A stretch of DNA of 64,000 nt. It comes from a bacterium (GTDB lineage: Bacteria; Bdellovibrionota; Bacteriovoracia; Bacteriovoracales; Bacteriovoracaceae). Below, in pieces: positions 32,991-60,062 of this stretch (within the stretch, counting starts at the first letter, position 1; every line of letters starts with the position of its first letter). The notes beneath the pieces were generated by a model. That model was given only the letters and a program-made list of their open reading frames with translations, had not been told where the DNA came from and searched no databases. The stretch lies in contig JAUHVL010000001.1 in the NCBI GenBank assembly GCA_030425045.1, forward strand, positions 124,001 to 188,000, read 5' to 3'. Made by a program: the position numbers and the translations under genes.

Positions 32991-33995
32991 ATGGATACTG
33001 TTTACACTGTCAGAGAATATGAAAAAAGAGATCGAGAATTAATTGAGGATTTTCGAAAGCAAACATTTATAGAAGGCAACGATAGTTTAACAGTTGAAAA
33101 ATTTGACCCCGAAAAACTTGAAGGCTTAACTCTTTTATTATTCTGTAATGATAAACTTGCGAGTATTTCAGTATGTGAGGCAAGTCACTATACGAATGAT
33201 ATGACCATTGCTGCTCGGATTTGTCGTTTTCATGTATTAAGAGAATTTAGGCATTGTAATGCCGGATTCAGAATGATTCGACAGCAAGTTGAATGGGCCA
33301 GGCAAACGGGCTTTAAATCTCTTTATTGGACGAATGACATTAATAAGAAAATTCTTAATGTTCTTTATCAACACGAAAGAAAAATTGGAAGAAGTGGTTT
33401 AGAAGAGGAATATGAAATTTATAAAAGCTTTAAATTAAGAAATGATTTATTGTTTCGAGTGAGTAAAAAGTCAGACTTCCTTCAGTATGTTTATGAAAAA
33501 AAACTTGATGAAAACTTCTTATGGTTACCAAAAGAAAATATGATTTATTATGCTCACGATGGGAAGGACATAAATGTTGAGGAGGTTCTTTCCATAGAAA
33601 AGCAACCCAACGTTTGGCATTTCAAAACCTCATTTAAAAAATCGAGTATTCATGGGATAGGGAGATTTTGTGAGGAAGAAATTAAAAATGGGGAAGTTGT
33701 TTGTACACTCGGTGGAGTTTTGGCAGAGAAGTCATTTAAGTCAGGATTTATGCCTATGGGAGAAAATACGGAGCTAAGATGTCAGCCAACTTTTGTAAAT
33801 CATTCCTGCGCACCAAATGTGGAACTTAAAGAAGAAAAAAAATTCGTTGCTATCAAAGATATTATGCCCGAAGAAGAAATTTGTATCGACTATTCTAATT
33901 TAAAAGAAAAAGACAAACTTGTTTTAAGTAGATGTTATTGTAAAAGTGAGAATTGCCGTAATGAAATCTTTGGTAATAAGAATTTTATCTCGTAA
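32991..33995 (+). CDS. GNAT-like domain fused to SET methyltransferase domain
   Basis: A 334-residue protein of two parts. Residues about 1-150 look like a GNAT acetyltransferase fold (LLLFCNDKLASISV; FHVLREFRHCNAGFRMIRQQVEWA). Residues about 205-325 are a SET domain: GIGRFCEEEIKNGE, the NHSCAPN motif (270-276), EEEICIDYS, and a post-SET-like Cys cluster (C315, C317, C322). SET enzymes methylate lysine on proteins. Bacterial SET proteins exist, but the fusion is unusual. It overlaps the convergent radical SAM gene by 11 bases. Confidence 0.7.
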   Translation: MDTVYTVREYEKRDRELIEDFRKQTFIEGNDSLTVEKFDPEKLEGLTLLLFCNDKLASISVCEASHYTNDMTIAARICRFHVLREFRHCNAGFRMIRQQVEWARQTGFKSLYWTNDINKKILNVLYQHERKIGRSGLEEEYEIYKSFKLRNDLLFRVSKKSDFLQYVYEKKLDENFLWLPKENMIYYAHDGKDINVEEVLSIEKQPNVWHFKTSFKKSSIHGIGRFCEEEIKNGEVVCTLGGVLAEKSFKSGFMPMGENTELRCQPTFVNHSCAPNVELKEEKKFVAIKDIMPEEEICIDYSNLKEKDKLVLSRCYCKSENCRNEIFGNKNFIS

Positions 33996-36412: not shown

Positions 36413-36438
36413 ATTTAAAGTAAACTTAGGTGAAAACT

Positions 36439-37017
36439 ATGAATACGAGAAGATCAATTATTAAAAAACTAATGGCTGGAGTTGTAGGTACTGTTTCATC
36501 TGGTTCGATTTTGGGAGTTGAAACGATGCTGGAACTAAGTGAAGAGAACCTTAAGTATGATGAATATTTTTTCACTGTGAGAACGATCGTAATGAAAGAT
36601 AAAAAACAAAATGAAGAATTTGTTGAAAACTATTTAGACGATGGAAAATATAGAATGAGGTCTTTGTTTTCTTATCTTAAAAGTACTTTCTGGCAAAAGC
36701 ACTCTGACGAAATTGTAAAACTATATAAATCAAAAGATCTAGTTTTTAGAGCGAAGGTTGCTAACGTAGGTAACAATTGTGTTGAAGTTATAAATATTTG
36801 GTCTAGTAAAAAAATTCATGATGATTGTTATAATAAATGTAACGGTGACATGATGTTTTCAGAGTTTGATCAAAGAGGATTTAAAACAGAACTTAAGTCG
36901 GGTGTTTTAAAGAAATCTGATGTTCTTACTTTTGCAAATAAAGTAACGAGCAATGGTAAGCACGTTGTTGAAATTGGTGCAGGACCAAATAGGCATATTA
37001 AAGTTAATATTATCTAA
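36439..37017 (+). CDS. Small exported protein with twin-arginine-like signal (2)
   Basis: ATG 36439, with AGGTGA just upstream, gives 192 residues; a GTG at 36430 is a weaker option. The N-terminus NTRRSIIKKLMAGVVGTV is a clear Tat-type signal. The mature domain of about 165 residues has three cysteines close together (NNCVEV; DDCYNKCNGD) and ends HVVEIGAGPNRHIKVN. It resembles the end of SoxY/SoxZ-like or quinoprotein partner domains only loosely; no family is claimed. It precedes a TauD-like HSN gene by 11 bases, as at 29237. Confidence 0.6.
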   Translation: MNTRRSIIKKLMAGVVGTVSSGSILGVETMLELSEENLKYDEYFFTVRTIVMKDKKQNEEFVENYLDDGKYRMRSLFSYLKSTFWQKHSDEIVKLYKSKDLVFRAKVANVGNNCVEVINIWSSKKIHDDCYNKCNGDMMFSEFDQRGFKTELKSGVLKKSDVLTFANKVTSNGKHVVEIGAGPNRHIKVNII

Positions 37018-43787: not shown

Positions 43788-44978
43788 CTAATTTAGTTTA
43801 TTGATCGTGTTAAAGTAATAAGAGTTTGTGCCATACTGGTATTCAACTTTGGCTTTATATTCTTTGATAAGCTCTTGTTTTAGGTTTTTTTTATAAAGAT
43901 GATGATCCCCTAAATGCTTTAAGAGGTTATAAAAGTTATGGTCTCTCTGACTAAGATTTTTTCTTTTATCTAAAATACTTTTGGTATATTTTGAAGAGAT
44001 AGAAAAAAGCTCTTTGTTTTTGAGAAGAATAGATGCTCTTAATACTTCAAAATTGAAGTTAACCATCGTGACAGAAAGTCGAGAAAGCTTAGACAGTGAA
44101 AAGAGCTTCTTTGCATATTTTAGTGCGACATTTGGCTTTGTCTTTATATTGCTATTGAGATCGATAATAGTTTTCATGCCCTCTGTGTATTGATTATTAG
44201 ACAGTAAGTTTTTGATCTGAAGAGCGTTTTTATAATCTCCTTCTAAAATGTAAATAAAGCTATTGAGAAAGTTGGCAATATCTTTACAGACGGTCGTTGA
44301 TTTTTTGTTGAACAGAACTTTGTCTATTCCTAAGATTTTTGCTTTTGAGAAGTTTCCTTGTGAAATGTAAAACTTTGCAAGCTCGATTTGATATGAGCAA
44401 TTTTTTTTCAGTGCTGAGGGTACGTTCTTATTGAACCTTTCATAGCGCTCATTCTTTCCGGAAATCCTCAATAAGACTAAACGACTCAGGTTAAGGCTAT
44501 CGGTAATGGCGCTTTTAATAAGAGGTCTTCTTTTAAATAAATCATCATCATTCATTAGGGGAAGGGTTTGATAATTAGAAAACTCTTCACTTCTCGCAAT
44601 CTTAAGTGCATGCTCGGCAAGTAAAACGATGTGTTGGTCTTTGTAGTCTTTCTTTAGAGATTTATCACGATTTAATTTAAAAACTGTAGTCATGAGTCGG
44701 TTGAAATAAGAAAAGCTTTCTGTGATATCATTATTTCGATAGAAAGAGAGAATTTCTTCAAGCTTACTGGTCAGCTGATTGTTAAGAAATTTGCCCTCGA
44801 GTATTTCTTTAAATATTTTTTGATCAACTTTTGTTACATCTGCAATGCTTTCAGCACCTGTTATTGAGTATTGGTCTACGTGTACGCTGTTGTTTGCGTA
44901 TAGGCAGTGAATAAATAAAAATAAAATTATATTAAATTTTATCTTTCCACTTTGAAATATTTTCAGAATATTCCTCAT
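43788..44978 (-). CDS. Secreted helical-repeat protein of unknown function
   Basis: A 396-residue protein with an N-terminal hydrophobic signal (about 15-28, IILFLFIHCLYA) and a long helical mature region, with segments resembling tetratricopeptide-type pairs (QIELAKFYISQGNFSKAKIL; FIYILEGDYKNALQI). It overlaps the end of the DGD-motif gene upstream by 47 bases, so it is translated from the same message. It may be a periplasmic scaffold for the cluster. Confidence 0.55.
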   Translation of the reverse strand: MRNILKIFQSGKIKFNIILFLFIHCLYANNSVHVDQYSITGAESIADVTKVDQKIFKEILEGKFLNNQLTSKLEEILSFYRNNDITESFSYFNRLMTTVFKLNRDKSLKKDYKDQHIVLLAEHALKIARSEEFSNYQTLPLMNDDDLFKRRPLIKSAITDSLNLSRLVLLRISGKNERYERFNKNVPSALKKNCSYQIELAKFYISQGNFSKAKILGIDKVLFNKKSTTVCKDIANFLNSFIYILEGDYKNALQIKNLLSNNQYTEGMKTIIDLNSNIKTKPNVALKYAKKLFSLSKLSRLSVTMVNFNFEVLRASILLKNKELFSISSKYTKSILDKRKNLSQRDHNFYNLLKHLGDHHLYKKNLKQELIKEYKAKVEYQYGTNSYYFNTINKLN

Positions 44979-45729
44979 AACTTTCTTCTGGTGTTAAGTT
45001 TTTAACGCTTATTTTATTATCGAGGAGTCTTTGAAAGATTTCAACATCATCATCATTGATATTTTGATCAAATAAATCTTTAAGTATATTAAAGTCATTT
45101 ATTTTTGTAGAAATAACGTCTTCATTGTTTTCCAGAGCAAAAAGCAGTCCTTGTCTAGCCCCTTTAATAACATACTGACCAAGGTCAGTATGTGTGCCGA
45201 CATTGATCCAAGAATTTAGTCTACCTAATGAGACATTATCTTTTTGTTTTTTTATATTATTAAAAAGTTTAGTTGCTTCACGAAAACCAGATCTCCAGGC
45301 GGGGTAGGGTGACGTTGCATATAGCGTTTTTGATCCGAGTTCGTTTATGACGATATATTTTTTGGTCGCATTTGTGGCATGGTCTTGAAATTTTTTTAAT
45401 GAGTTTGAAAATGTTTTTTTTGACCATAGTTTAAGTCCACCAAAGCCATATACAAGTCCATTTATAGGGTTCAAACATCTCCACACATAAATAGAATCCG
45501 TCTCAAGATTTTCTGGTGAGTTAAAACTAAAAGAGTCTAAAAGTTGATTATCACCATCGAGAGTGTAAAAAAAATTAGTCTCTGCTAAAAGTGATGCTTC
45601 ATGGTGAGCTTCTCTTATACCTTTAACACCATGAACTCTTTTTGATTGTGGATATTTTGTGAGAAGCTTTTTCCAGTTCTCTTCGGCATTTTCTTCATCG
45701 TAAGAAATAAAAACGATATCGTGATTCAA
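44932..45729 (-). CDS. DGD-motif glycosyltransferase-like protein (1)
   Basis: A 265-residue protein. The order YDEENAEENW, KRVHGVKGIREAHHEAS, the DxD-like LDGDNQ and the NPINGLVYGFGGLKLW signature define a family shared with the protein at 48283-49206. The DxD motif after a hydrophobic strand suggests a GT-A nucleotide-sugar fold, but no donor is known. It follows a SPASM-type radical SAM gene by 3 bases. From memory, similar proteins occur in marine T4-like phages; this needs a search. Confidence 0.55.
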   Translation of the reverse strand: MNHDIVFISYDEENAEENWKKLLTKYPQSKRVHGVKGIREAHHEASLLAETNFFYTLDGDNQLLDSFSFNSPENLETDSIYVWRCLNPINGLVYGFGGLKLWSKKTFSNSLKKFQDHATNATKKYIVINELGSKTLYATSPYPAWRSGFREATKLFNNIKKQKDNVSLGRLNSWINVGTHTDLGQYVIKGARQGLLFALENNEDVISTKINDFNILKDLFDQNINDDDVEIFQRLLDNKISVKNLTPEESYEEYSENISKWKDKI

Positions 45730-45732
45730 GGT

Positions 45733-46845
45733 TTAAACCTTTATTTTGGGAATTTTGCTATCGACACTTGAAACACAGGTCGGAGTCATACACTCTTTTG
45801 GTTCTTTAAAAATTTGAAAATCATCCTCAATATGTCCAATAGGCTGATCGTGACAACTATAACTTCTTTTTATATTGCCATCCGGCTCTCTAATGACAAT
45901 ACCCTGAAAGCCGGCATTACATTTCCAGCCTTTAAAGCGATTAAAGTTAAATGCATTAAATCTCTCGGCTTGATCCATATACCATTTTTTGCCAGAATCG
46001 TCGGTTAGTTCTACCTGCATTCTTTGCGGTACATTTGAATCGTCACCTCGACTAAATTGCATTTCTTTGAGATTAAGTTTTGGTTTTGGACGACTCGATG
46101 CTTTTCCTGATTTCTGAAGTCTTGCAAGTGTATAATCTCGCTGAGGCATTCCGTTGTGAAGAGTTCTCAATTGCTCTTTTGTATAACCATCGACAACACG
46201 ACTTGCCGTTGGATCAGATTGAGGCTTGAGTGTGACATTGATCCCTGCTTCGTGAAAAAAAAGTGCTTCGGCAAAATACTTATCAAACCACTCTGGAACC
46301 ATCACCATATTGATTGTTACTTGTACGTCATTTTCTTGTAGAAAAATGATCTTATCTCTAAAGTCTTCTTTGACACCAAACTCACGGTGCCAAGATGCCG
46401 TTACACTTACTCTATGTAAGTTTTTTGTAGCTTCTATATACTTTTTAAACCAGGGTATCCCTGGTGAAAGATTGGATGTCATATGACAAGATTGATAATC
46501 GGTATTTTCAATATCATCTGCATAATGATTTAAAAGTTTTAAATAACCAGGGTGAAGAGTTGGTTCTCCTCCTGAAAAACTAAAATGGAACGAATTAAAA
46601 CCATTTTCTCTTGCTTGGAGTTTAATTTTATCCATCGTTCTTATGAGGAGTTCAAGGGGCCGGTGATCTCTCTCATCACTTCTGGCATAAGGCCAACAGT
46701 AACTACACTTATAATTACAAAACCTACCGAGTAACCAAGAAACATTAAAAATATTTCTATAGAGGAGTGTTCTTTGCCCGACTTTAGTGATGTTATCAAA
46801 AGGAATTTTAGAAAAGTCGTATTCAGACCATTTGAGCTCTGTCAT
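45733..46845 (-). CDS. Radical SAM protein with SPASM-like C-terminus (type B, 1)
   Basis: A 370-residue protein with C43-x3-C47-x2-C50 (CNYKCSYC), GGEP (SFSGGEPTL) and a C-terminal Cys set for auxiliary clusters (GWKCNAGF, SYSCHDQP, ECMTPTCVSS). The same architecture occurs in the truncated gene at the right edge (62843). SPASM-type enzymes commonly act on peptides or proteins. It overlaps the upstream twitch gene by 23 bases. Confidence 0.82.
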   Translation of the reverse strand: MTELKWSEYDFSKIPFDNITKVGQRTLLYRNIFNVSWLLGRFCNYKCSYCWPYARSDERDHRPLELLIRTMDKIKLQARENGFNSFHFSFSGGEPTLHPGYLKLLNHYADDIENTDYQSCHMTSNLSPGIPWFKKYIEATKNLHRVSVTASWHREFGVKEDFRDKIIFLQENDVQVTINMVMVPEWFDKYFAEALFFHEAGINVTLKPQSDPTASRVVDGYTKEQLRTLHNGMPQRDYTLARLQKSGKASSRPKPKLNLKEMQFSRGDDSNVPQRMQVELTDDSGKKWYMDQAERFNAFNFNRFKGWKCNAGFQGIVIREPDGNIKRSYSCHDQPIGHIEDDFQIFKEPKECMTPTCVSSVDSKIPKIKV

Positions 46846-48235
46846 ATTCTTCGTCTAGTAAAAGTGCCATTTCAGGAAAAACTTCTCTAAAGTTTGTTCC
46901 ACGTATTTTATCCATTCTATTTATATACTCGATAAACTCAGGCATACGGTTTGACCAATCTTCTGATTCCATAAATTGAACCATGCCTTTTAATCTCTTG
47001 ATTCCATAGCTAGCTTCCATGAATTCTTCTTTGGAGTAAGTTTCACCACCATTAGGAGCAACTTCTTTTTCTAACCAAAGATAGAAATTTTCATACTTAG
47101 CTCTAATTTTTTCTTTAAACCACTTTGGAAAAACTTTAACGTTTAGGTGTGGAGGATGATAAACAAAATGATAATTAATTAACCCAGCACCAAGAGGCCA
47201 TGGATTAATCTTCTTATACTTCTGTTCCCACTTCCATTTTATAAAGTCTGGGATGTAGTACATGTTTAACATTTGTACTGCACAAGCAATAGTAACTTCA
47301 ATATGATCTGGAGTATCGTCAAGTCTTCGTAACATTGGTTCTACTTGACTCCACTGTGAAGGAAAACGAATATAGCTATTCATTGCTTCTATTGAGTCAA
47401 TTGAGTAATGAAAACGTACAGATTTAAATTTATTCCAAAGTTCAAATAGACGATCTGGCATCTCAACGGCGTTAGAATTATAACGTAATTGGATTTTATC
47501 TGCGTATCCCATCTCAACACACTTTTCTAAAAGAAGGTAATGGTGCTCGATAATGGTAGCTTCACCACCAGCAAAATAAAGTTGTTTGATATGGGGGATC
47601 TGTTCGTAAAGTTGATTCCAAAAACGGTCATTATTTAAATGCCAATTATATGAAGCTCCGTCTACCTGGCCTTTGTTATGCCATTGCATCGTTTCTTTTA
47701 GTGCAGGACTTTGTATTTGAGGGTGAAGTTTTTTCCAATCCTCAACCCACATCGAACTATCATGAGGAGAGCACATCACACATTTAAGGTTACACTTCGT
47801 TCCCAGTCTTAAGTCGATATAATAAACCTTGGGAGGAATAGAACCATCTTCAGCAGTGTCTGCTATAAGTTGATCGACATCGACTCTTCTTTGCCAAAAC
47901 TCTGTTTCCCACTGCCTTTTACTTCGATGGCCAGCTTCTTCTTCTTTAAAACATTTGAGACAACTCGGTGGAATTCTTCCTGCGAGCATATCCTTACGAA
48001 TATTTCTCATATAAGAATTATTCCAAGCCCTTAATAAATCAGTGTGATTAAAGTTCGCAGGCTTACCATCTTCATTTTTCAAAATTCCAACTTCACCACC
48101 GTGAACCTTATCGTTTGTAGCTCCAACTGAACTAGCATTGGCCGTACAGCAAACTCTCATATGCCCATTTGGACGAGTACTTAGATGAATCCATGGAAGA
48201 ATACAAAACGTTGAAAGGTCTTTATTATTGCTCAT
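46823..48235 (-). CDS. N-terminal twitch-domain radical SAM protein (1)
   Basis: A 470-residue protein of the twitch-first architecture: FCILPWIHLSTRPNG with C11, C29 and C30 (RVCC), C92/C95 (CLKCFKEEEAGHRSKR), then the radical SAM motif C148-x3-C152-x2-C155 (CNLKCVMC) and the GGEA variant of GGEP (YFAGGEATI). The N-terminal cysteines should bind an auxiliary [4Fe-4S] cluster. It starts the rSAM-rSAM-DGD run and has a 47-base gap from the second DGD-motif gene. Confidence 0.85.
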   Translation of the reverse strand: MSNNKDLSTFCILPWIHLSTRPNGHMRVCCTANASSVGATNDKVHGGEVGILKNEDGKPANFNHTDLLRAWNNSYMRNIRKDMLAGRIPPSCLKCFKEEEAGHRSKRQWETEFWQRRVDVDQLIADTAEDGSIPPKVYYIDLRLGTKCNLKCVMCSPHDSSMWVEDWKKLHPQIQSPALKETMQWHNKGQVDGASYNWHLNNDRFWNQLYEQIPHIKQLYFAGGEATIIEHHYLLLEKCVEMGYADKIQLRYNSNAVEMPDRLFELWNKFKSVRFHYSIDSIEAMNSYIRFPSQWSQVEPMLRRLDDTPDHIEVTIACAVQMLNMYYIPDFIKWKWEQKYKKINPWPLGAGLINYHFVYHPPHLNVKVFPKWFKEKIRAKYENFYLWLEKEVAPNGGETYSKEEFMEASYGIKRLKGMVQFMESEDWSNRMPEFIEYINRMDKIRGTNFREVFPEMALLLDEEYDRAQMV

Positions 48236-48282: not shown

Positions 48283-49206
48283 TCACTCTTCCATTTCAGG
48301 AAACATTAAGCCTTCTCTTCGAGGATTTTTTAAGTTCTTTTTAAACTCTGATGACTTTGCACTGTCTAGTTCATTTATTTTGAATTGATATAAGTCTTGA
48401 AGTTTGGTGGCGATTAGCGATGCTTGATCTTCAGGAGATAAGGACTGAACTTGATTCCACTTTTCGTAAAACCACTCATAATCTCTTATATTTTCAAGAG
48501 TTTCAGGCTTTTCAAGAATTTCGAATAGGCCCAAGCGAGCCCCGTATATGGCCCAAATTCCATTTTCCACATCTCTGCCAACTTCGCACCATGTTCTTAG
48601 CCTAAAGACATTGCCCTTAAAGAGAGTGTTATCTAAATTGTGTTTTTGTTTATCTGATAAAAGGTGCCCCTTATCCAAGCTCATTTTAACACCTTCGCGA
48701 TAACCTGCTCTAAAAGCCTGAAAAGCGGTAATATTAACGTTGGATATGGTGGGTGATTCTGGAACTTGGTAATAAGGAATAGTGAAGCAAAAATCTACAG
48801 AGGAGTCTTCAGTTGTCGAACTTTCATGGCTATTAGATGTTAAAAGTAATTTTTTTGGCCAACACTTTATTCCGCCGTTTCCATATATCAGTCCATTAAT
48901 TGAGTTTTTAGAAGAGTAGGAAAATACGTAATTTTTTTTAAGTAGTTTTTTTGAAATAGTGAGTTTTAATGAGCGCTCTGTGTCGAAAGAGTTGTCACCA
49001 TCAATTATTGTTAACCTTTCTGTGGTAGCGATTCTTGCACATTCTTTGTGTGCTTTATCAAAACCTTTAATACCATCAACTCGCTTTGCATTAGGTAAAA
49101 GGTTTTTAATAACAGGCCAACGCTCGTCTTTACCTGGTTCATCATAGGTAAGATAAAAAGTATCGTAATCAAAAATATTTTTCGTTTTATTAAATGGCCA
49201 AAACAT
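48283..49206 (-). CDS. DGD-motif glycosyltransferase-like protein (2)
   Basis: A 307-residue paralogue of the protein at 44932: LTYDEPGKDERW, KRVDGIKGFDKAHKE, the IIDGDNSF motif, SINGLIYGNGGIKCWPKK and a matching late segment WAIYGARLGLFEIL (KGARQGLLFAL in the other). The two copies flank the two radical SAM genes, giving the order DGD, rSAM, rSAM, DGD on one strand. It shares a short divergent gap with the methyltransferase-like gene. Confidence 0.55.
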   Translation of the reverse strand: MFWPFNKTKNIFDYDTFYLTYDEPGKDERWPVIKNLLPNAKRVDGIKGFDKAHKECARIATTERLTIIDGDNSFDTERSLKLTISKKLLKKNYVFSYSSKNSINGLIYGNGGIKCWPKKLLLTSNSHESSTTEDSSVDFCFTIPYYQVPESPTISNVNITAFQAFRAGYREGVKMSLDKGHLLSDKQKHNLDNTLFKGNVFRLRTWCEVGRDVENGIWAIYGARLGLFEILEKPETLENIRDYEWFYEKWNQVQSLSPEDQASLIATKLQDLYQFKINELDSAKSSEFKKNLKNPRREGLMFPEMEE

Positions 49207-49248
49207 ATATTATTTCTTTTGAATGAATATACCTCTCAATATAACAAT

Positions 49249-50415
49249 ATGAAAAATGAAAATATATATTTAGAAACAGAGCAAATACTTCTTGGGTTAG
49301 AATTAATGCATCCCGAAGTAGGCATCATTCCTAAACTTCGCCATAGCTTAGAAGGGATGACTTACCATTCGAATAATGATTCTAGAATTTTAGATGAATT
49401 ATTTAACACGATAAAATCTCTTGGAGAGTATGACTTAACATTTCCAATAGAGTCATTAATGATTTCCTCACAACAAAAAGACATTTTTATATGTGTTCAG
49501 GAAATTTTTAGAATTTTTGAGATTAAAATTACCGATGAGCATTTTAGAACGATATTTAATCATCTCAAAACGGAAAGTAGCTTGGATGAATTTAAACCGG
49601 TTCTATTTCTTTTTTTAGATCAAAATGAAAGTGTTGGTGGAGATTTAAAGTCATTATTATCTGAAGATAAATTAATAGAAAAGATAAAAACAATTTTAGA
49701 TATTTATTCTAAAAAATATGAAGATAAAGTTTTTGAAAACTTAAAAAACTTCTATAAACATTACCTTCTTCTAGAGTCTGAGCAAAAGCTATGGGAACTT
49801 TTGCATCAGTACACAAGCGTTACTTTATTTCATCGAATAAAAAGAGTTAAGCAATTAGAGTTAACATCGAGCTTAGCGGATTCTTTTTCTAAAGGACAAG
49901 TTAAAAGCAAAATTTGGGCTGTAGATGAATTGCAGAAAATAAAAGAAATAAAATATAACAAAGTTTATCTCATGTGTGGCTGGTATGGTCTTTTGGCGAG
50001 ACTTCTGTTTGACCATTATAACAAAAGTGGTGATACCTCAAAAGTAATTCAGTCTATTGATATTGATGAGAGCTGCAAGCCTGTTGCTGATTGTTTGAAT
50101 TATGATGAACATGTTGCAGGACGATTTATTTCTAATACAGATGATATTTTAAATATAAAAAATATTGAACGAGACTCACTGGTTATTAATACGTCATGTG
50201 AACACCTTGAAAACTTTAAAAAGTGGATGGAATTGTTGTCTGATGACCAAGCCGTTTTGCTACAGTCAAATGACTATTTTGAATGCGATCAACATGTTAA
50301 TTGTGCTGAAAGCCTCGAAGTATTTATTAAAAAAGCAAACTTAAAAACTGTTTATTTTTCAGGAGAGCTTCAGCTTGAGAAGTATAAAAGATTTATGATT
50401 ATTGGTTTAAAGTAA
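49249..50415 (+). CDS. Methyltransferase-like protein with helical N-terminal domain
   Basis: From ATG 49249 the protein has 388 residues; a TTG at 49219 is an alternative. The N-terminal half is helical. The C-terminal half has a Rossmann-type methyltransferase layout: KVYLMCGWYGLLARLL (SAM loop), SIDIDESCKPVADCLN (acidic end of strand 2), SLVINTSCEHLENF (motif IV-like) and LQSNDYFECDQHVNCAESL. From memory this motif set is common in marine T4-like phages. Acceptor unknown. Confidence 0.6.
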   Translation: MKNENIYLETEQILLGLELMHPEVGIIPKLRHSLEGMTYHSNNDSRILDELFNTIKSLGEYDLTFPIESLMISSQQKDIFICVQEIFRIFEIKITDEHFRTIFNHLKTESSLDEFKPVLFLFLDQNESVGGDLKSLLSEDKLIEKIKTILDIYSKKYEDKVFENLKNFYKHYLLLESEQKLWELLHQYTSVTLFHRIKRVKQLELTSSLADSFSKGQVKSKIWAVDELQKIKEIKYNKVYLMCGWYGLLARLLFDHYNKSGDTSKVIQSIDIDESCKPVADCLNYDEHVAGRFISNTDDILNIKNIERDSLVINTSCEHLENFKKWMELLSDDQAVLLQSNDYFECDQHVNCAESLEVFIKKANLKTVYFSGELQLEKYKRFMIIGLK

Positions 50416-50416
50416 G

Positions 50417-51592
50417 TTAGTTATCAAAAATACCCTCGAAGTAAGGGTAGCTATCCATAAAACATTGTTTTCTACTTTTGTCAGTTAAAGTTATATACCG
50501 TTCTAAATCTGGTAGCTTTGAAGAATGGTCTGCATGGTTCATATAATTTAAAATGTATTCAAGGCTATTTTTAGCTTTCCCGTTAAAAGTAGGAATATAA
50601 TCCCTATATTTGTCATTAATTTTTTGTTTGATCTTTTTGGGGAGAACAGTAATCGATAAAAAGTCTGGATAGGTAAGATGAGTTGGATTTAATTGCGGAA
50701 GATCCGAAGTGTCTCGCTCAAGCCAATAATTTAAAGTTTCAGGTAAAGTCCAAACATTTAAAATACTAACGGTAGCCCTCATTATGATATGGATATTCTT
50801 TTGTCTATTTAACTCAAAAAACTGATTCATTACTTTTATCATTCTTTCTTGTTTTGAGGGCCAACGTATATATTCCCATTCGTTTTTTAAACAACTATCA
50901 AAACTAAGAGCTAGTTCTATGAACTTAAACTTGTTCCATATATCAAGCTGTTTGCTAGATGGGAAAATGGTGCAATTACTACTATAGTTCAAAAAGATTG
51001 ATTGAGAATTATCTGAGCTTACAAGTTCTTGAAGAAGTTTCCACTGCTCATCGATAATGAGAGGCTCACCGCCTGTAAACTTTAAGTGTGTTAAACTTTT
51101 GTGATAAGCGGATAAACTTTTTAGTGAAATGTTAGCATTTCTTTCTTTTGAAAAAGTTTTTCCAAAAAGCCTTTTTTCTTCATTGAACCAAAGCCTTGAG
51201 TAGCGACTATCACACATTCTACATGCTAAGTTGCATTCATTTGAAATTGAAAGCTCAAGCCATTTTAAATCAGGATCTTCTGTATCGTAATTATCAATTT
51301 TTGAAAAATTTGAATTGTTATTATATCGTTCACGCAAACTCTTCTTGCTAGCTTTCTCTTCTTGATAACATCTTTGACATCCCTCAATTTCAAACCCCTC
51401 AAGTGATTTCTTTCGAAGATTAATCATCCAATCGCTGGAGAAAATTTCTTTAAGTGTTTTTGAGTTTATATTATGTGATTTGGGTCTTTCTTTTTCAAGA
51501 AATCTACAACAAGGTTTAACTCTGCCTGTTGGGTCTATAAATTGATGTGTCCAGAGTAGAGAACAAAATGTTTTTTTATTTGAAGTATTCAC
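50417..51592 (-). CDS. N-terminal twitch-domain radical SAM protein (2)
   Basis: A 391-residue protein with the same twitch-first order: FCSLLWTHQFIDPTGR and KPCC (C28, C29), GCQRCYQEEKASKKSLRER, the radical SAM motif C120-x3-C124-x2-C127 (CNLACRMC) and GGEP (KFTGGEPLI). Last of four consecutive radical SAM genes on the minus strand, 3 bases after the B12-type gene. Confidence 0.85.
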   Translation of the reverse strand: MNTSNKKTFCSLLWTHQFIDPTGRVKPCCRFLEKERPKSHNINSKTLKEIFSSDWMINLRKKSLEGFEIEGCQRCYQEEKASKKSLRERYNNNSNFSKIDNYDTEDPDLKWLELSISNECNLACRMCDSRYSRLWFNEEKRLFGKTFSKERNANISLKSLSAYHKSLTHLKFTGGEPLIIDEQWKLLQELVSSDNSQSIFLNYSSNCTIFPSSKQLDIWNKFKFIELALSFDSCLKNEWEYIRWPSKQERMIKVMNQFFELNRQKNIHIIMRATVSILNVWTLPETLNYWLERDTSDLPQLNPTHLTYPDFLSITVLPKKIKQKINDKYRDYIPTFNGKAKNSLEYILNYMNHADHSSKLPDLERYITLTDKSRKQCFMDSYPYFEGIFDN

Positions 51593-51595
51593 AGA

Positions 51596-53086
51596 TTAAA
51601 AAGCGTAATGAGCATAGTTATTACTGTCAACGTTTATACCATAATCTTCTAGTTCTTTTAGTAAATGATTTGTGGCTTTTTCAACGATTGGATAACCCAG
51701 TTCTTCACATTTCTGCTTAAGTCGAAGCCATCTTTTAATTCTGTTAACTCTATTATTGTCTCCTAGGTACCAATTTTTTTTCTCATCCCACTTTATATTC
51801 ATGTCTTTGTGCTTATTATATAGAGGTGATCCTGGAACGATATCTAGTGTTGGGCCTAGAGCAACACTACGGATAAGTTTTTTCTCATTAATCCAGTTAT
51901 ACTTATCGAGAAGTTCTAATGTTTTTTGAAACTCTTCCTCAGTTTCTGTGGGATAACCTACAATCATAAGCCAAGCCATCTGAATTTCGTATTTAGCACA
52001 CATTTCAAAAGTATAGCGTAGGTCTTCATCATTAAACATTTTTTTCATATCATCACGAACTTTCTCAGAGCCACTTTCCACACCTATGCTTACAAAAAAA
52101 CAACCAGCTTCTTTCATAAGTTTAAAAACTTCTTCGGGCATATCTTTTCTTGATCTTGCAATAAACTGTCCTTGCCACTTAACAGGCTTCATTTGCTTTG
52201 TATTTTTGTACTCTATTAATGTTTGGCAAAGGTCTTTAAGGACTTTAATGGAGCCATTTAGCAGACTATCTGTAAAGAGAAATCGTGAGCTTCCAAAACG
52301 ATTGTTTTGAATTTTCATTTCTTCAGCAATAGAAAAGCCAGATCTGTATCTAAATTTTGGCCATAAGTTTTGAATGTCACAAAATTCACACTTTCGAACA
52401 CACCCTCTAGAGCCTGTTATGTAGATAAATTCGCTACCAAGTTTTTTTGGGTCTTTAACTCTTGGGTCATTCCATGTTTTTGGATAACATTCAAAATTAA
52501 AGTCACTGTAATCTGGAATTGGTATACCGTCTAAGTTATCAATTTGTTTAGGAGCAATTCCATTGATACCGGGAGATTCGATACTTCCCTTAAGGAGGTT
52601 AATAATTGCTTCTTCCCCCTCACCAACAATGTAAGCATCAATTATTTTTTTTTCAAAAAGTGGCTTTGCGAAGTACTCAGTATAAGGTCCTCCAAAAACG
52701 ATTTTAATATCAGGGTATTTTTGTTTTATGAGTTGAGAGAAATAAATACTAATAAATTTACTTCTCTGGCTAAAAATAGTCATACCAACCCATTTTGGCT
52801 TTCTTTTTGCGATGTCTTCAGCCCAACCATTCGCAATGTCTCTTAGTATGTTTTCCCAAAAACTCTGAAATTTATCTTCATGCCTAAATGTTAAATCAGT
52901 ATCAAACCATAAATGGCCATATTTTTGACTATCTAGCTTTTCCCATAGTGATAAGTTTAGATCAATGCATAAGGCTTTCATGCCTTCTCTTTCTACACTA
53001 GCTTTTAGAAGTGCTGGAGCTGTAAGCGGGCTTCTGAGTTCTAACCTAGGGAGTGTAAGAAGAATTATATCTAGAATGCTATTCAT
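51596..53086 (-). CDS. B12-binding-domain-type radical SAM protein (3)
   Basis: ATG 53086 overlaps the previous stop in ATGAATAG and gives 496 residues; the frame is open to 53143 but that would extend far into the upstream gene. The cobalamin-like domain (about 1-180) has WVGMTIFS, KIVFGGPYTEYFAK and YIVGEGEEAI segments, typical of class B methyltransferases. The radical SAM motif is C229-x3-C233-x2-C236 (CVRKCEFC), followed by FVSIGVESGSEKVRD. Of the three B12-type proteins it is the one closest to the usual class. Confidence 0.85.
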   Translation of the reverse strand: MNSILDIILLTLPRLELRSPLTAPALLKASVEREGMKALCIDLNLSLWEKLDSQKYGHLWFDTDLTFRHEDKFQSFWENILRDIANGWAEDIAKRKPKWVGMTIFSQRSKFISIYFSQLIKQKYPDIKIVFGGPYTEYFAKPLFEKKIIDAYIVGEGEEAIINLLKGSIESPGINGIAPKQIDNLDGIPIPDYSDFNFECYPKTWNDPRVKDPKKLGSEFIYITGSRGCVRKCEFCDIQNLWPKFRYRSGFSIAEEMKIQNNRFGSSRFLFTDSLLNGSIKVLKDLCQTLIEYKNTKQMKPVKWQGQFIARSRKDMPEEVFKLMKEAGCFFVSIGVESGSEKVRDDMKKMFNDEDLRYTFEMCAKYEIQMAWLMIVGYPTETEEEFQKTLELLDKYNWINEKKLIRSVALGPTLDIVPGSPLYNKHKDMNIKWDEKKNWYLGDNNRVNRIKRWLRLKQKCEELGYPIVEKATNHLLKELEDYGINVDSNNYAHYAF

Positions 53087-54122
53087 TGTGTTTGCTTTTT
53101 TCATAGGCAATGTTTTGATTTTTTTCTCGGTCGACAACACCACAGGTTAAAATACATCGCTTCATTGTTTTGTTGTTGCTAAAAGATTTAACAAATTTTT
53201 CCCTATAAAAGGGATGTTCTAATATTTTACGCCATGAATTCTTTCGAAGAGAAAATTCATTTATTGGAAAAAAAATTTCAGTATCATTTTTATTTAAAAC
53301 CATAGATTCGTTATTGTCACTAATATAACAACAAGGAAATACCTCAAGTCTGCTATTAACGTAAATTTTTGAAGCCTCTCTATAAATACAGTTAATATTA
53401 TAATTGGTAGGTGTTTCCTTAAATATGGTTTTGATTTTGTCTAAGTCAGGATGCCTTAGATCTTTATTTTTTGGTGGCTCTAGATAGTGAGAAAATTCTC
53501 CAAACTTATTTTTTACTTCAAATGAATCAGATTTGAAGCGGGGTGTTTTTCTAATTCTGAATTTATCGACACCTAAGTTGTCAGCGAGCTTCTTGCAGCT
53601 GTCTAGCTCATGTTCATTATGTTTAAAGGCTAGAAAGTCCCACTGAGTTTTAACATTGGAATTACAGCATATTTTTAAATTTCTTATTATAAGATCGATT
53701 TCTGTGCCTTGACGGTAAAGATGATTTGTTTCTACTCCATCTATTCCAAATGCTATTTTGTCATTAGAAGTAAGATGACTTGTAAGAGTATCCCACCAGC
53801 TCTCGTTTTGAAGACTTCCATTTGTAAAGATTTCAATGTCAATATTGTTAGATTTAAGATGTTGAATAGCATCTATTAAATATTTAAACGTGATGGGATC
53901 TCCGTGAGTCCCACAAAAATAAACCTTTTTAAGATTTTTGAGCTCTTTAGAAAAAACGTTAGGTATATCATCTTTTTGCCATTGTCCCCAGCCGGGATTA
54001 TCTCTTAACCCGAATCCGTTTTTATTTCTTGCACACATAGGACAAGAAGCATTACACAGGTTACTAACTTCAACATGTATCTCTTTTATATTTTCTGGAG
54101 TTAAGTATTCAAAGTTCTTCAT
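53079..54122 (-). CDS. Radical SAM/SPASM protein, GDP-motif subfamily (1)
   Basis: A 347-residue protein: C23-x3-C27-x2-C30 (CNASCPMC), then CGTHGDPIT where GGEP normally stands, FTNGSLQNESWW, a GIDGVETNHLYR segment and a C-terminal EVFPCC plus CILTC auxiliary-cluster set. The neighbour at 54109 and the genes at 60746 and 61827 share the entire order. They probably bind SAM with a variant amino-group loop and modify peptides or proteins. It overlaps both neighbouring radical SAM genes. Confidence 0.83.
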   Translation of the reverse strand: MKNFEYLTPENIKEIHVEVSNLCNASCPMCARNKNGFGLRDNPGWGQWQKDDIPNVFSKELKNLKKVYFCGTHGDPITFKYLIDAIQHLKSNNIDIEIFTNGSLQNESWWDTLTSHLTSNDKIAFGIDGVETNHLYRQGTEIDLIIRNLKICCNSNVKTQWDFLAFKHNEHELDSCKKLADNLGVDKFRIRKTPRFKSDSFEVKNKFGEFSHYLEPPKNKDLRHPDLDKIKTIFKETPTNYNINCIYREASKIYVNSRLEVFPCCYISDNNESMVLNKNDTEIFFPINEFSLRKNSWRKILEHPFYREKFVKSFSNNKTMKRCILTCGVVDREKNQNIAYEKSKHNE

Positions 54123-55182
54123 AGCTTAATTTGTCACGCGTAATGTTTGTACCGTGTCCACTACTAAACTCATACTTGCTTCCACAAGTTCTACCGCAAG
54201 TATAAATTCTTTTGAATTGTTCGTTTGGATTATCCCATGAGTTTGCTAAATATTCTTGAAAAAAATCATGATTAAGAACGTCCCAGCCTTTTACCCTTAG
54301 GTCATTAAAATTATTGCCATACAGTTTGTATAGATATTTGATTGAATCACTTTGTTTATTTTTATGTAAAAAGTAAGAAGGTGCTCCAAGCCAACAGCAT
54401 GGCCAAAGTTTCATTTCCATATCTATAAAAATCTTAAAGTCACTTTTAAATTTACAATTGATCTTTGTATGGTTTACATAGCTATCAAAATCTCCGTATT
54501 GAGCAATAGCTTTAGATTTGGACAATTCACTTTGATCATTTTTAGGCTGATTAATAGTTTGTCCTTTAATTGTTTTTACTTTTCTCTTACCTTCATTTGA
54601 AAATCTTGAACTTTTTTTGTGAATAAACTTTTTGACACCGATATCATTTGCCAGTTGCTTTATTTCATGTACTTGATGTTGATTGTGTTCAAATTCGATA
54701 AAATGCCATTCTGCGTTTCCTCCAGCTTTTGTAAACGACTTTAGGTTGCTTAAGAGTAAATTCCAGTTTGCTCCAACACGATAAACATGATTTGTGTCAG
54801 CTAGGCCATCAATAGAAAAAATAACAGTGAGCTTATCTTTTCCCTTGAGCGCAAATTGCTCCCACCATTTATTTGTTTTGAGGCTACCATTTGTAGCAAT
54901 CTTTATATGTTTGACATTTTTTTTAAGACAATATTCAAAAGTATTATCAAAAGTTGGACTTGCTAGAGCATCACCATAGTTTCCGCAATGAAAAAGTTTA
55001 ATTTTATTCTCTTCAAATGGTTCTAAAATAATTTGGTAATCCTGAACGGAAAGGTCGGATAATCTTTGGCTACTCTTAAGGCTCCATTGATGTGATTGCC
55101 TTGCACATTGAGGACATGATAAATTACATCTACCGGTGTGGTCTAGTTGTATCTGGTTGACATCATTAATATTTAAATACAT
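54109..55182 (-). CDS. Radical SAM/SPASM protein, GDP-motif subfamily (2)
   Basis: A 357-residue paralogue: C19-x3-C23-x2-C26 (CNLSCPQC), CGNYGDALA in place of GGEP, ATNGSLKTNKWW, IDGLADTNHVYR, and the C-terminal LWPCCW and TCGRTCG sets. It is the first gene of the four-gene radical SAM operon reading leftward and overlaps the next gene by 14 bases. Divergent from the anchored-protein operon beginning at 55248. Confidence 0.83.
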   Translation of the reverse strand: MYLNINDVNQIQLDHTGRCNLSCPQCARQSHQWSLKSSQRLSDLSVQDYQIILEPFEENKIKLFHCGNYGDALASPTFDNTFEYCLKKNVKHIKIATNGSLKTNKWWEQFALKGKDKLTVIFSIDGLADTNHVYRVGANWNLLLSNLKSFTKAGGNAEWHFIEFEHNQHQVHEIKQLANDIGVKKFIHKKSSRFSNEGKRKVKTIKGQTINQPKNDQSELSKSKAIAQYGDFDSYVNHTKINCKFKSDFKIFIDMEMKLWPCCWLGAPSYFLHKNKQSDSIKYLYKLYGNNFNDLRVKGWDVLNHDFFQEYLANSWDNPNEQFKRIYTCGRTCGSKYEFSSGHGTNITRDKLSYEEL

Positions 55183-55247: not shown

Positions 55248-55721
55248 TTGTCTTTTAATAGATTAAGAATCTCATTTTTTATAATTATACTAATCTTTAT
55301 TGTTCACGCACCTATTGAAAAGTTTTTCTTAAAAGAAAGAACCTTTTACCCACTTTATAACTGGGAGTTGGGTTTTGGGCATATCACGACTGTCGCAAAA
55401 ATGAGTAAGATTGTTTTATTAGGAATTAATAATAAAAAGTTAAAAAGTGAAACAATATATCATAGACATCCGCTATTTGAGAAAAGCTGGAATAAAACAA
55501 ACGATTATAAAATTCCTGCAAAACTCGTTAGGGCTTTTCAATCTGGAAACAAGTATAGAATAAAAAGAGAAAAGAGTAGTTTTGAAGATTATTTTTTTAA
55601 AAGGTTTAACTTGAATCAAGTCGAATACAAAATTGTATATAGGGAGTACAATCCTATTGAGTCAGATAATAAATCTTTAAAAGTGATAGAATATGGTCCG
55701 TACTTGTACACTAATGAATAG
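55248..55721 (+). CDS. Small membrane-anchored protein, WELGFG family (1)
   Basis: A 157-residue protein starting at TTG, with AAGG about 8 bases upstream. One membrane helix (about 8-24) is followed by the motif YPLYNWELGFGHI and a polar exported domain. The motif recurs in the protein at 58613 (WPYFNWELGFGSI). Each copy is immediately followed by an HTTM-like gene, so the two probably form a complex. No catalytic function is evident. Confidence 0.6.
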   Translation: MSFNRLRISFFIIILIFIVHAPIEKFFLKERTFYPLYNWELGFGHITTVAKMSKIVLLGINNKKLKSETIYHRHPLFEKSWNKTNDYKIPAKLVRAFQSGNKYRIKREKSSFEDYFFKRFNLNQVEYKIVYREYNPIESDNKSLKVIEYGPYLYTNE

Positions 55722-56682
55722 TTTCTTAAAAAAAATGAGGCCAAATTACGGATCAAAAAATCCGATAGCGTTGCTTTCAAGGCATTATCTACAATCCCTG
55801 GATTCTTTAAGGGTTTTTTACTTTTTTTTATTTTATGTTTCGACACGTTACTTAACCTTGGTTTGGAAGGATGTTTCTAGCTCAACTAGCTTAAGTCCTC
55901 CTGGCATATTCTTTTTTTTCAAGTATGTAGATGTAACCTTCTTTGAAGCCGCAATTTATCTATCTCCGATAATTACTTTTATTTGTATGTTAACACCAAG
56001 GCATAGAGCTTTGAGGATAGCATCAATCATGATGATATTAATTGTGTTCACTTATAAGAACTCATTCGGTAGAAAGCTTCATGGAGAACTCTTGTATTTA
56101 TATATAGGAATTGTCTACGCATTCATCCCCACGTGGCCAAAGAACCCTTCCCTGGTGAATAATAAACAAAAGCATTATCATTTACACCTTTATTGGTTTG
56201 GATTGTTGTTGTTTTTATTTCCTTATACTTTGTCAGGCTTGTGGAAATTATTTTGGGGAATGGGTTGGCAGTTATTTTTTGAAGAAAAAAGTTTTCTATC
56301 TATAGACTCATTGTCATATATTATAAAAATGTATGCTCAAAGAATTCAAACACCTCCCGTGTTAGGAGATTTCCTTATAAATAACCCAGCGCTAGGTTGG
56401 TTTTTGAATATTGCTGGAACCTATTGGGAGGTGATTGCCATATTGCCATTATTTAAACCTAGGCACTGGAGGTTGACGGCAGCTTTGATTTTAATTTTCC
56501 ACTTAATGTCGTTTTATACTTTAAATATTATTTTTGCTTATCAGTTTGCGATCGTTCCATTTTTTTTACTGACGGTACCACTACACAAAGAGGCAAAGAA
56601 CTGGGGAGAATTAGTAGAGGACTTACCTTTGTTAGGTGGTCTCTATAGGTTAGTTAGAAGAAGTAGGATAAGTCTTTTATGA
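55714..56682 (+). CDS. HTTM-like polytopic membrane protein (1)
   Basis: From ATG 55714 (in ATGAATAG, overlapping the upstream stop) the protein has 322 residues; the frame is open to 55693. It has six to eight hydrophobic helices, with the SGLWKLFWGMGWQLFFEE segment that resembles the conserved region of horizontally transferred transmembrane (HTTM, vitamin-K-carboxylase-like) proteins. The carboxylase C-terminal part is missing. Its second copy is at 59103. It overlaps the downstream radical SAM gene by 4 bases. Confidence 0.55.
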   Translation: MNSFLKKMRPNYGSKNPIALLSRHYLQSLDSLRVFYFFLFYVSTRYLTLVWKDVSSSTSLSPPGIFFFFKYVDVTFFEAAIYLSPIITFICMLTPRHRALRIASIMMILIVFTYKNSFGRKLHGELLYLYIGIVYAFIPTWPKNPSLVNNKQKHYHLHLYWFGLLLFLFPYTLSGLWKLFWGMGWQLFFEEKSFLSIDSLSYIIKMYAQRIQTPPVLGDFLINNPALGWFLNIAGTYWEVIAILPLFKPRHWRLTAALILIFHLMSFYTLNIIFAYQFAIVPFFLLTVPLHKEAKNWGELVEDLPLLGGLYRLVRRSRISLL

Positions 56683-57863: not shown

Positions 57864-58616
57864 GTGCTAAAAGAGACATTTTACAGAGGAAAACAAGATA
57901 TAGATATTGAAGAAGAAATCTTCTTTGAAAATAAATTCGGAACAAAAACAATTATTCCTTTTAATTCTAAGTGGAAGCGTATTGTTCTTCAGGCATCTGG
58001 GGGGCTAGATAGTTCATTACTTCTATTTCTTACAGCAAAAGCGTTCAAAGAAAAAGGTGCAGCTGTTGAAATTTTTCCTTTAAGTTTAGAAATTCCAACT
58101 AAGGCAAAAAATCTAGAGTCTGCTAGAAGAATTATTGCTACCGTTAAAAAACTAACAGGCTACGAGCATTTGAAAGACGGTATTGAAGTTGTAATGCCAC
58201 TGGAAGAAGCAATGCCTCCTAAGAAAAATGAATTTTTTAATAACACTATAATAGAACTTTTTAGAGAATATAAATTCAATATGGAGTTTAATGGAAATAC
58301 AAGAAACCCGCCTGAGGAGGATAGGGTTTTTTTTCCTAACGATAACTTTAGAGAGCTTCATAGGGATGATAGAACAACTATTTACAATTCGGACTTATCT
58401 GTAAGCCCCCACTCTTACGTTTCTAAAAAAGGAATTGTAAGCCAATATATAAAATATAATTTGTTAGAAGATTTAGCGGTACATACTGTATCTTGTGATA
58501 TGAATCTTGAAGATCTTGAAAGAAGGGGGTTGGGGTTTCCTTGTATGCAGTGTTGGTGGTGCTATGAAAGGAAGTGGGGGTTTGATTCAAACAATATAAA
58601 GGACCCTGCAACTTGA
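57864..58616 (+). CDS. QueC-like PP-loop ATPase
   Basis: A 250-residue protein starting at GTG. The PP-loop ASGGLDSS begins at about residue 44, and a zinc-type Cys cluster CMQCWWCYERKWG (C227, C230, C233) stands near the C-terminus, as in QueC. QueC makes 7-cyano-7-deazaguanine, but no other queuosine gene is nearby and the middle region is different, so a nitrile- or amide-forming role on another substrate is possible. GGGGG lies before the start. Confidence 0.6.
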   Translation: MLKETFYRGKQDIDIEEEIFFENKFGTKTIIPFNSKWKRIVLQASGGLDSSLLLFLTAKAFKEKGAAVEIFPLSLEIPTKAKNLESARRIIATVKKLTGYEHLKDGIEVVMPLEEAMPPKKNEFFNNTIIELFREYKFNMEFNGNTRNPPEEDRVFFPNDNFRELHRDDRTTIYNSDLSVSPHSYVSKKGIVSQYIKYNLLEDLAVHTVSCDMNLEDLERRGLGFPCMQCWWCYERKWGFDSNNIKDPAT

Positions 58617-59119
58617 AAGTAAAAACGTATTGGAACCGTATAGCCTTTTATATAGTGTTTACATTTTTGTTGATACTTGTAGCTCCTTTTGATCGTTTTT
58701 ATCATGCAGACTTTATTAGGGCTTGGCCATATTTTAACTGGGAGCTTGGTTTTGGGTCCATACCATACGAGAAGGTTTGGAACATTATTTTTATCGATGA
58801 GATCGATGGTAAAAAATTTGATCCTCCTGTTCGCCTATCTGATTATATACAAAAGAATAAGAGTGGTCAGATGTACTGGATTCCAACTAAGCACTATATT
58901 ATTCAAAGCATGCTGGCTCAGGCACATTACTCAAAGGATCAAGCAAGAATAGATAGAATCAATAGATTAATACAAAAAAGGTGGTTGAACTTCTTAGCTA
59001 GGCAGGAGGTAAAATACCACTTGGCAACGTTAATAATTGACCCGTTAAAATATCGAAAAGATAAAACTCCATTGAGAAGTAAAATAATAAGAAGAGAAAG
59101 ATATGTTCTTAAATATTAA
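58613..59119 (+). CDS. Small membrane-anchored protein, WELGFG family (2)
   Basis: A 168-residue second copy of the protein at 55248: one helix (about 9-25), then the AWPYFNWELGFGSIPYE motif and a basic exported tail. It starts at TTG overlapping the previous stop (TTGA) with AAGGA upstream, and overlaps the following HTTM-like gene by 17 bases. Confidence 0.6.
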   Translation: MKVKTYWNRIAFYIVFTFLLILVAPFDRFYHADFIRAWPYFNWELGFGSIPYEKVWNIIFIDEIDGKKFDPPVRLSDYIQKNKSGQMYWIPTKHYIIQSMLAQAHYSKDQARIDRINRLIQKRWLNFLARQEVKYHLATLIIDPLKYRKDKTPLRSKIIRRERYVLKY

Positions 59120-60062
59120 TTTCTTAAAAAATATTTACAGAAAACTTCGAGAGAATAGAAGTCTCGCTAATAATACGATTGCGAACCAAAATAGAACTTA
59201 TGAAAACATTAAAAAGCAACTTCCAATAATTTATATGGTTTTATCATATTTCGCATTTTTGCAGGTAAGGCACTCAATGGCTTTAACGGGAGAGGTTCGG
59301 ACACCGATTTTGTTCTTTTATTTAAAGTATTATACTGCAGATATATTTCTTTTCTTTAGATGGATAACTCCTTTTGCTTTGCTCGCTGCTGCGTGTTTCC
59401 CTAACAATAAGTTCACCGTCCGACTTTCTCTTTTCTTATATGTTCATTTAGGAGCTATTGCTAATGTAACAACTGTTCCTGAAAATGGTTTTCGACCTTC
59501 TATATGGTTAGCTTTTTGTTTACTTTTTATGCCTTGGAATGACGGACAGTCGGTCTATAAGAGGACGATGTTTAATCTTCACTACTGGTTTAGTTTAATA
59601 ATGTTCTCTTTTGCCTACTCTGCGGCAGGTATTTGGAAAATTTTGTGGGGTGGAGTGTATCAATTATTTGAAGGGAGGCTGGGGCTTTGGGATCCACAAG
59701 CGATGGCATATATTATTGCTGAATATTGTCTAAGAACAATTAAGACTTTTCCAATTGGTGAATGGTTTATTGAGAATTATTTCCTAGGCTGGGTGCTGCT
59801 AATTGGAGCATCTTTTGCCGAAGCAACCATATGGATAGTGTTCTTAAGACCTTCTCTTTGGAGGGTGTATGGAGTCTTGATGGTAGTTATGCATACAACG
59901 TCCAAGATGACTTTGAATATTGGATTTGAGCAACAATATATTCTAACGGGTTTGATTTTCTTAAACTCACCATTTGAGGTTAAAGATAGTTTAAAAAGAA
60001 CATTTTTGGAATTACCAGCAGTTAAGTTTGTAAGTAGCAGGTCATTTTTCAAGAAGTTTTGA
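59103..60062 (+). CDS. HTTM-like polytopic membrane protein (2)
   Basis: A 319-residue paralogue of the protein at 55714: AAGIWKILWGGVYQLFEG instead of SGLWKLFWGMGWQLFFEE, and a matching end (LTLNIIFAYQFAIV there, MTLNIGFEQQYILT here). About seven membrane helices. The last 21 bases overlap the convergent hydroxylase gene. Confidence 0.55.
   Translation: MFLNINFLKNIYRKLRENRSLANNTIANQNRTYENIKKQLPIIYMVLSYFAFLQVRHSMALTGEVRTPILFFYLKYYTADIFLFFRWITPFALLAAACFPNNKFTVRLSLFLYVHLGAIANVTTVPENGFRPSIWLAFCLLFMPWNDGQSVYKRTMFNLHYWFSLIMFSFAYSAAGIWKILWGGVYQLFEGRLGLWDPQAMAYIIAEYCLRTIKTFPIGEWFIENYFLGWVLLIGASFAEATIWIVFLRPSLWRVYGVLMVVMHTTSKMTLNIGFEQQYILTGLIFLNSPFEVKDSLKRTFLELPAVKFVSSRSFFKKF

Follow-up and report, generated by a model that had tools for sequence, protein, structure and literature searches.

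A conserved three-gene radical SAM module within a chromosomal radical SAM island that shares gene families with aquatic phage arrays

The 64,000-nucleotide window analyzed here (C34:124001-188000, contig JAUHVL010000001.1 of the 3.97-Mb Bacteriovoracaceae genome GCA_030425045.1) contained a run of four adjacent intact open reading frames (ORFs) for radical S-adenosylmethionine (rSAM) proteins, 54109, 53079, 51596, and 50417 (genes are named by their leftmost coordinates), all on the minus strand. The run was an inner component of an island carrying at least 15 rSAM genes between tuf and secE, whose core families recurred in multi-rSAM arrays of aquatic phages, and three of the four genes (54109–51596–50417) constituted a module found again in other Bdellovibrionota. 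The favored reading, given a probability of about 0.45, is that the island is a surface-glycan tailoring system and that the module would act on a single sugar acceptor in a succession of radical steps.

The four-gene run and its conserved module

The run and the signal at its 3′ end were composed as follows:
54109-55182, minus strand: rSAM protein of 357 aa, opening the run and belonging to the conserved module
53079-54122, minus strand: second rSAM protein with a C-terminal twitch, 347 aa; outside the module elsewhere
51596-53086, minus strand: rSAM protein of B12-domain type, core of the module; the longest ORF extends to 53143 and gives 515 aa
50417-51592, minus strand: N-twitch rSAM protein of 391 aa, closing the run and likewise belonging to the module
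50449-50431, minus strand: terminator-like hairpin at the run's 3′ end, weak and by pattern match only

The reading frames of 54109 and 53079 overlapped by 14 bases, those of 53079 and 51596 by 8 bases when the ATG at 53086 was taken as the start of 51596, and those of 51596 and 50417 were separated by 3 bases; each of the four proteins had one CX3CX2C motif, with no internal stops. This arrangement had been described in the initial annotation, and coordinates, motifs, and PF04055/NF033640 matches bore it out. The upstream neighbor 55248 (plus strand) was divergent and the downstream neighbor 49219 (plus strand) convergent, and thus the run comprised exactly four genes. A promoter scan was uninformative (30 sites versus 29.4 in shuffles); the layout is best explained by a single predicted operon within the 49-kb island.

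All four proteins belonged to the radical SAM superfamily by the CX3CX2C motif and the PF04055 core: 54109 (29.9 bits), 53079 (33.5 bits), and 51596 (63.2 bits) exceeded the PF04055 cut-off, while 50417 (29.1 bits, slightly below the cut-off of 29.5) was assigned via NF033640 (N_Twi_rSAM; 298.5 bits versus a curated cut-off of 170) and matched the SPASM domain PF13186 at its N-terminal residues 10-76. To our knowledge, the NF033640 family is without an assigned reaction. The member types given in the initial annotation were two GDP-motif SPASM proteins, one B12-type, and one twitch-type protein, and the latter two held (the B12 type marginally). 53079 was a paralogue of 54109 (28% identity, alignment A1), and the "GDP motif" of both occupied the usual GGE position, here GDA/GDP after a conserved Cys. 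54109 had its CX3CX2C motif at residues 19-26 and C243, C262, C329, and C333 invariant across an alignment of 44 homologues; four conserved C-terminal Cys are enough for one auxiliary cluster (twitch), not two, and Pfam SPASM (PF13186) gave no match to 54109 or 53079, and thus the two were classified as twitch-like rather than SPASM. Their best NCBIfam model was TIGR04317 (72 bits for 53079 and 62 bits for 54109), and identity as a tungsten-cofactor maturase was rejected, the cut-off being 380 bits and no tungsten enzyme being seen nearby.

51596 shared the B12-domain-plus-rSAM architecture of B12-dependent rSAM methyltransferases, with a marginal PF02310 match (33.1 bits versus a cut-off of 32.1). 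The DXHXXG motif was absent from 51596 and its three orthologues, making the cobalamin binding mode uncertain, and the curated B12 methyltransferase models (TIGR03975, PhpK, and BzaD) all scored far below their cut-offs.

Genomes were also scanned for the 54109 family, and all ORFs neighboring the matches were then compared with the island proteins. The order 54109–51596–50417 was kept in three other Bdellovibrionota metagenome-assembled genomes (MAGs), annotated as Bdellovibrionia or Bdellovibrionales, at 48-68% identity (54109/51596/50417):
L036: 52/65/51%
L037: 50/64/48%
L067: 51/68/50%

A 53079 homologue lay between the 54109 and 51596 homologues in 0/3 MAGs; in L036 its position was 5390-6481, roughly 3.5 kb upstream of the module. 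The proposal of several successive steps on one substrate therefore survives as joint function of 54109–51596–50417, whose order is kept, while a fixed set of four steps is unsupported. Strict 51596 orthologues (>1000 bits) were present in 4/368 genomes of the phylum including its own (families f1, f11, and f17), and the twitch family A4 at E <1e-50 in 26/368. The functional unit is probably the three genes, patchy in distribution and, judging from these comparisons, probably moved horizontally. As three genes instead of fifteen, and kept in divergent bacteria, it gives a compact and tractable set for substrate finding. A PP-loop ATPase of the 57864 type adjoined the module in L037 and L067, and the pairing of a 51596-type with an N-twitch rSAM protein recurred at 30% identity in the viral arrays L200 and L202 and in G225 (L205).

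Two related combinations were seen beside these: (i) an N-twitch rSAM gene that came after two tandem B12-domain rSAM genes (41% identity to 51596) in G225 (L205:7313-11387) and (ii) one run of an N-twitch rSAM gene, an amidinotransferase-like gene (guanidine-type enzyme), and a B12-domain rSAM gene in G014 (L023:5580-9408).

The tuf–secE island and its phage counterparts

The initial annotation had missed a larger feature around the run, a 49-kb island with 15 rSAM genes and families shared with phage arrays. The island was about 49.4 kb in length, from 22054 to 71437 (L003:8437; L003 coordinates continue past the window end), i.e., from the end of tuf to just before secE (71438, L003:8438). 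The tuf–nusG distance was 49.8 kb here versus <1 kb in ten relatives (e.g., G002, G014, G017, and G029-G031). The left border and the rSAM genes of the island were as follows:
20863-22053, plus strand: tuf (PF00009), left island border
rSAM genes in the window: 22107, 33985, 40962, 45733, 46823, 50417, 51596, 53079, 54109, 56679, 60746, 61827, and 62831
rSAM genes past the window end: 64051 and 67950

Five of these (50417, 46823, 56679, 22107, and 64051) exceeded the NF033640 cut-off. The whole genome had 50 PF04055 matches, versus 6-37 in 24 relatives; the density of 15 rSAM genes per 49.3 kb versus 50 matches per 3.97 Mb gave a Poisson P of ~3e-16, indicative only because genes cluster. The G+C content was of little help (32.9% in the island, 34.8% upstream, and 38.7% in the downstream ribosomal genes), and gene strands were mixed. 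A tRNA-Trp gene (24045-24120, plus strand; ARAGORN) was located in the tuf–secE interval beside the main island block; its 3′ end was not repeated at the opposite end of the interval and no integrase was recognized, and thus an integrative element is unproven.

The sequence comparison was also applied to 79 viral loci; a single rSAM query had retrieved the loci, and the counts below hold for that sample only. The island core families recurred in IMG/VR contigs, those identified by sample being aquatic; the families common to the island and the phage contigs were 46823-, L003:4950-, L003:1051-, 45733-, 61827-, 48283-, 49219-, and 57864-like, and they occurred as members of multi-rSAM aquatic phage arrays (clusters with at least four rSAM genes). 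The island copies of these families within the window, together with a second member of the 48283 family, included:
46823-48235, minus strand: N-twitch rSAM protein of the most conserved array family (NF033640, 435 bits; L028 homologue 73% identical)
45733-46845, minus strand: array-type rSAM protein adjoining 46823 (PF04055, 47.8 bits; array homologues 58-69% identical)
48283-49206, minus strand: glycosyltransferase-like protein of GT-A fold, D69 and D71 being invariant
44932-45729, minus strand: second GT-A-like protein of the 48283 family (alignment A3, 27% identity; homologue in 51 loci)
49219-50415, plus strand: array-associated protein, C-terminal half methyltransferase-like by eye; no Pfam match
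57864-58616, plus strand: PP-loop ATPase, QueC/NAD-synthase-like (PF06508, E 0.001, below cut-off)

The AlphaFold2 model of 48283 (predicted local distance difference test score, pLDDT, 92.3) had the SunS S-glycosyltransferase as its best Foldseek match (E 5.9e-5) and reached a VIA Z of 9.7, and a weak Glycos_transf_2 match was found in 7/35 of its homologues; by its predicted structure, 48283 is a GT-A-fold protein.

Runs of four or more consecutive co-directional rSAM genes were present in 19/79 viral loci, and the arrays came after tail-type genes. GT-A homologues occurred in 37/47 viral loci with at least four rSAM genes versus 7/21 with two or fewer (P 7e-4), and 49219 homologues in 39/47 of the former; sugar-type genes for carbamoyltransferase, FkbM methyltransferase, and UDP-Glc/GDP-Man dehydrogenase (L164) were additionally found in the arrays. 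Fourteen consecutive co-directional rSAM genes were carried by L040 (NZHE01000012.1, labeled Rickettsiales MED657), which grouped with viral sequences in the tree of the 46823 family and is thus probably a phage contig in the wrong bin. In that midpoint-rooted tree, phage sequences stood beside Bacteriovoracaceae sequences inside otherwise Bdellovibrionota branches, which tentatively suggests a bacterium-to-phage transfer of the 46823 family. Among phage isolates (INPHARED, tblastn), 46823 and 48283 had no match, and 54109 had only weak matches (28%) in Pelagibacter phage Mosig and Campylobacter phages.

Two small-protein families accompanied the phage arrays, neither with a confident Pfam match: one of ~74 aa (L142:7757-8008; 35 viral loci) and one of ~115 aa (L183:1322-1669; 23 viral loci).

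The enzyme families and multi-rSAM phage cassettes as such are already known: 12 rSAM genes are carried by the T4-like environmental genome TARA_ERS488813_N000010 (PMC5332604), and the hypervariable host-recognition cluster (HRC) of pelagimyophages contains rSAM cassettes, glycosyltransferases, and a UDP-glucose dehydrogenase, the rSAM proteins having no assigned function (PMC7029224). The island resembled these pelagimyophage and T4-like aquatic phage cassettes in its multi-rSAM array, the families having been compared via the phage contigs fetched here rather than the genomes of those papers. Unlike them, it occupied the tuf–secE interval of a bacterial chromosome, not the VrlC/tail-fiber locus of a T4-like genome, and it additionally had TauD, desaturase, and SET genes and the 54109–51596–50417 module. 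The aquatic phage arrays had previously been noted in passing, with no assigned substrate. In the open-access literature searched, no function for phage rSAM cassettes was found, and neither was a description of the three-gene module or of a chromosomal 15-rSAM island (a limited negative).

Candidate substrates of the rSAM set

Under the favored reading, the GT-A proteins 48283 and 44932, GT2, and the PMT-like membrane enzymes would build a surface saccharide or glycoconjugate, and the rSAM enzymes would then alter single C-H positions of that saccharide or of its sugar precursors, possibly by epimerization, dehydrogenation/deamination, or C-methylation. BtrN, SpeY, BlsE, and DesII perform such reactions on antibiotic sugars. 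The module members 54109 (twitch), 51596 (B12-domain), and 50417 (N-twitch) would act as one unit on one acceptor, with 53079 as a local addition, and the core families would have been exchanged with aquatic phages and carried there as arrays in the HRC, where they would change either the infected cell's surface or that of the virion.

A saccharide is the likeliest substrate because of the sugar context of both the island and the phage arrays (UDP-sugar dehydrogenase, carbamoyltransferase, FkbM methyltransferase, and glycosyltransferases). The AlphaFold2 model of 54109 (pLDDT 93.5) displayed a compact rSAM core with an auxiliary region at the C terminus; VIA Z was 18.3 for the peptide maturase SuiB (best) and, among the sugar/nucleoside SPASM/twitch rSAM enzymes (10-17% identity), 18.0 for BlsE, 17.7 for DesII, 14.8 for BtrN, and 11.9 for SpeY, and the sugar-acting BlsE and DesII, within 1 Z of the top match, were counted for the glycan reading. 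Five points weigh on the other side: (i) the peptide-acting SuiB, SkfB, and anSME matched 54109 as well as the sugar-acting enzymes did, so that a structure search with this predicted model fails to separate peptide from sugar acceptors; (ii) the top Foldseek matches of the GT-A model were the peptide glycosyltransferases SunS and ppGalNAcT; (iii) the module's own neighbors (PP-loop ATPase, Asp-hydroxylase-like, and HTTM-like) were not sugar genes; (iv) the Asp/Asn-hydroxylases, TauD oxygenases, and SET domain of the island suit protein substrates too; and (v) no undecaprenyl-phosphate (initiating) sugar transferase, flippase, or polymerase was recognized among the island proteins scanned.

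Points (i), (ii), and (iv) would be equally at home in an explanation by which the rSAM set modifies a protein post-translationally (in the bacterium one that is exported or at the surface, in the phages a tail protein or adhesin), acting alongside the Asp/Asn-hydroxylases, TauD oxygenases, and a glycosyltransferase of peptide type. The two Asp_Arg_Hydrox, three TauD, and SET genes, the short Tat-like proteins 29237 and 36430 directly before TauD genes, and the tail-type genes adjoining the phage arrays (also PMC7029224) fit it as well, and the hydroxylases, TauD oxygenases, and peptide-type glycosyltransferase matches make it a strong rival; it is nevertheless rather unlikely, given that the hydroxylase, TauD, and SET genes were all outside the module, that TauD homologues were found in 0/47 viral loci with at least four rSAM genes, that no protein partner was conserved beside the module, and that no leader-binding domain was seen in the model of 54109 (the sole one of the four proteins modeled). 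The last point also bears on a classical pathway for a ribosomally synthesized and post-translationally modified peptide (RiPP), in which a short precursor would be matured by the four rSAM enzymes and then exported; the initial annotation had spoken of candidate exported substrates. The weak partial similarity to maturase models, all far below cut-off, and the RiPP model nearest to 51596, the C-methyltransferase TIGR03975 (103 versus 282 bits), point toward such a pathway; no small ORF was common to the four module loci, which speaks against it, and neither a peptide exporter or peptidase among the annotated island genes nor a RiPP recognition element (RRE)-like domain in 54109 was recognized, leaving the exported peptide very improbable.

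A product needing no peptide at all, i.e., a small diffusible compound of modified amino acid or nucleoside type, could be made by the rSAM, TauD, PP-loop (24124 and 57864), and aminotransferase-like (32057) enzymes, and amidinotransferase-like genes stood beside rSAM genes in L023 and L034 (by eye); without a recognized nonribosomal peptide synthetase, polyketide synthase, or exporter, and with the same core families held by phages at a tail-fiber locus, an odd site for a diffusible product, this is improbable. It is scarcely credible that the rSAM genes are unrelated mobile cassettes piled up at a tuf–secE hot spot with no common product: patchy distribution (module orthologue in 4/368 genomes), mixed strands, and the hypervariability of phage HRCs (PMC7029224) would agree with a pile-up, but in three genomes the module order has persisted (48-68% identity), and many phages carry these families together.

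If the substrate is indeed a surface glycan, the arrays would account for much of the hypervariable content of phage host-recognition clusters and add a chemistry-based way to change surface antigens. A broader and decidedly tentative proposal is that predatory Bdellovibrionota and aquatic phages have exchanged a mobile rSAM assembly line that would diversify a surface glycan or protein by serial C-H edits rather than by glycosyltransferase swaps, with 54109–51596–50417 as a fixed three-step unit; if true, it would be a new way to vary cell or virion surfaces.

Other genes of the island

Besides its rSAM genes, the island carried (i) oxygenase-type and desaturase genes, namely three TauD, two Asp/Asn hydroxylases (Asp_Arg_Hydrox), the fatty-acid desaturase 35594, and 37897, related to it by eye; (ii) sugar-type genes, namely a PMT_2-like membrane glycosyltransferase, GT2, the UDP-Glc/GDP-Man dehydrogenase-like L003:3788, and the two GT-A-like genes; and (iii) a SET-domain protein, PP-loop ATPases (PP-loop/Asn-synthase-like 24124), and the aminotransferase-like 32057.

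Two short proteins with Tat-like N termini, 29237-29635 (RRKLILKG) and 36430-37017 (RRSIIKKL), were each encoded directly upstream of a TauD gene and are candidate substrates or partners. The region 32991-33995 encoded a GNAT-like N-terminal region fused to a SET-domain region at the C terminus. A pair encoding a ~160-aa membrane protein plus an HTTM-like protein was duplicated (55248-56682 and 58613-60062), and one copy was also found after the module in L067. A further rSAM cluster, in G010 (L034:2493-18267), contained amidinotransferase-like, DegT-like, and PIG-L-like genes, and its small proteins L034:14805-15314 and 17734-18267, adjoining rSAM genes 15304 and 16721, resembled phage structural proteins.

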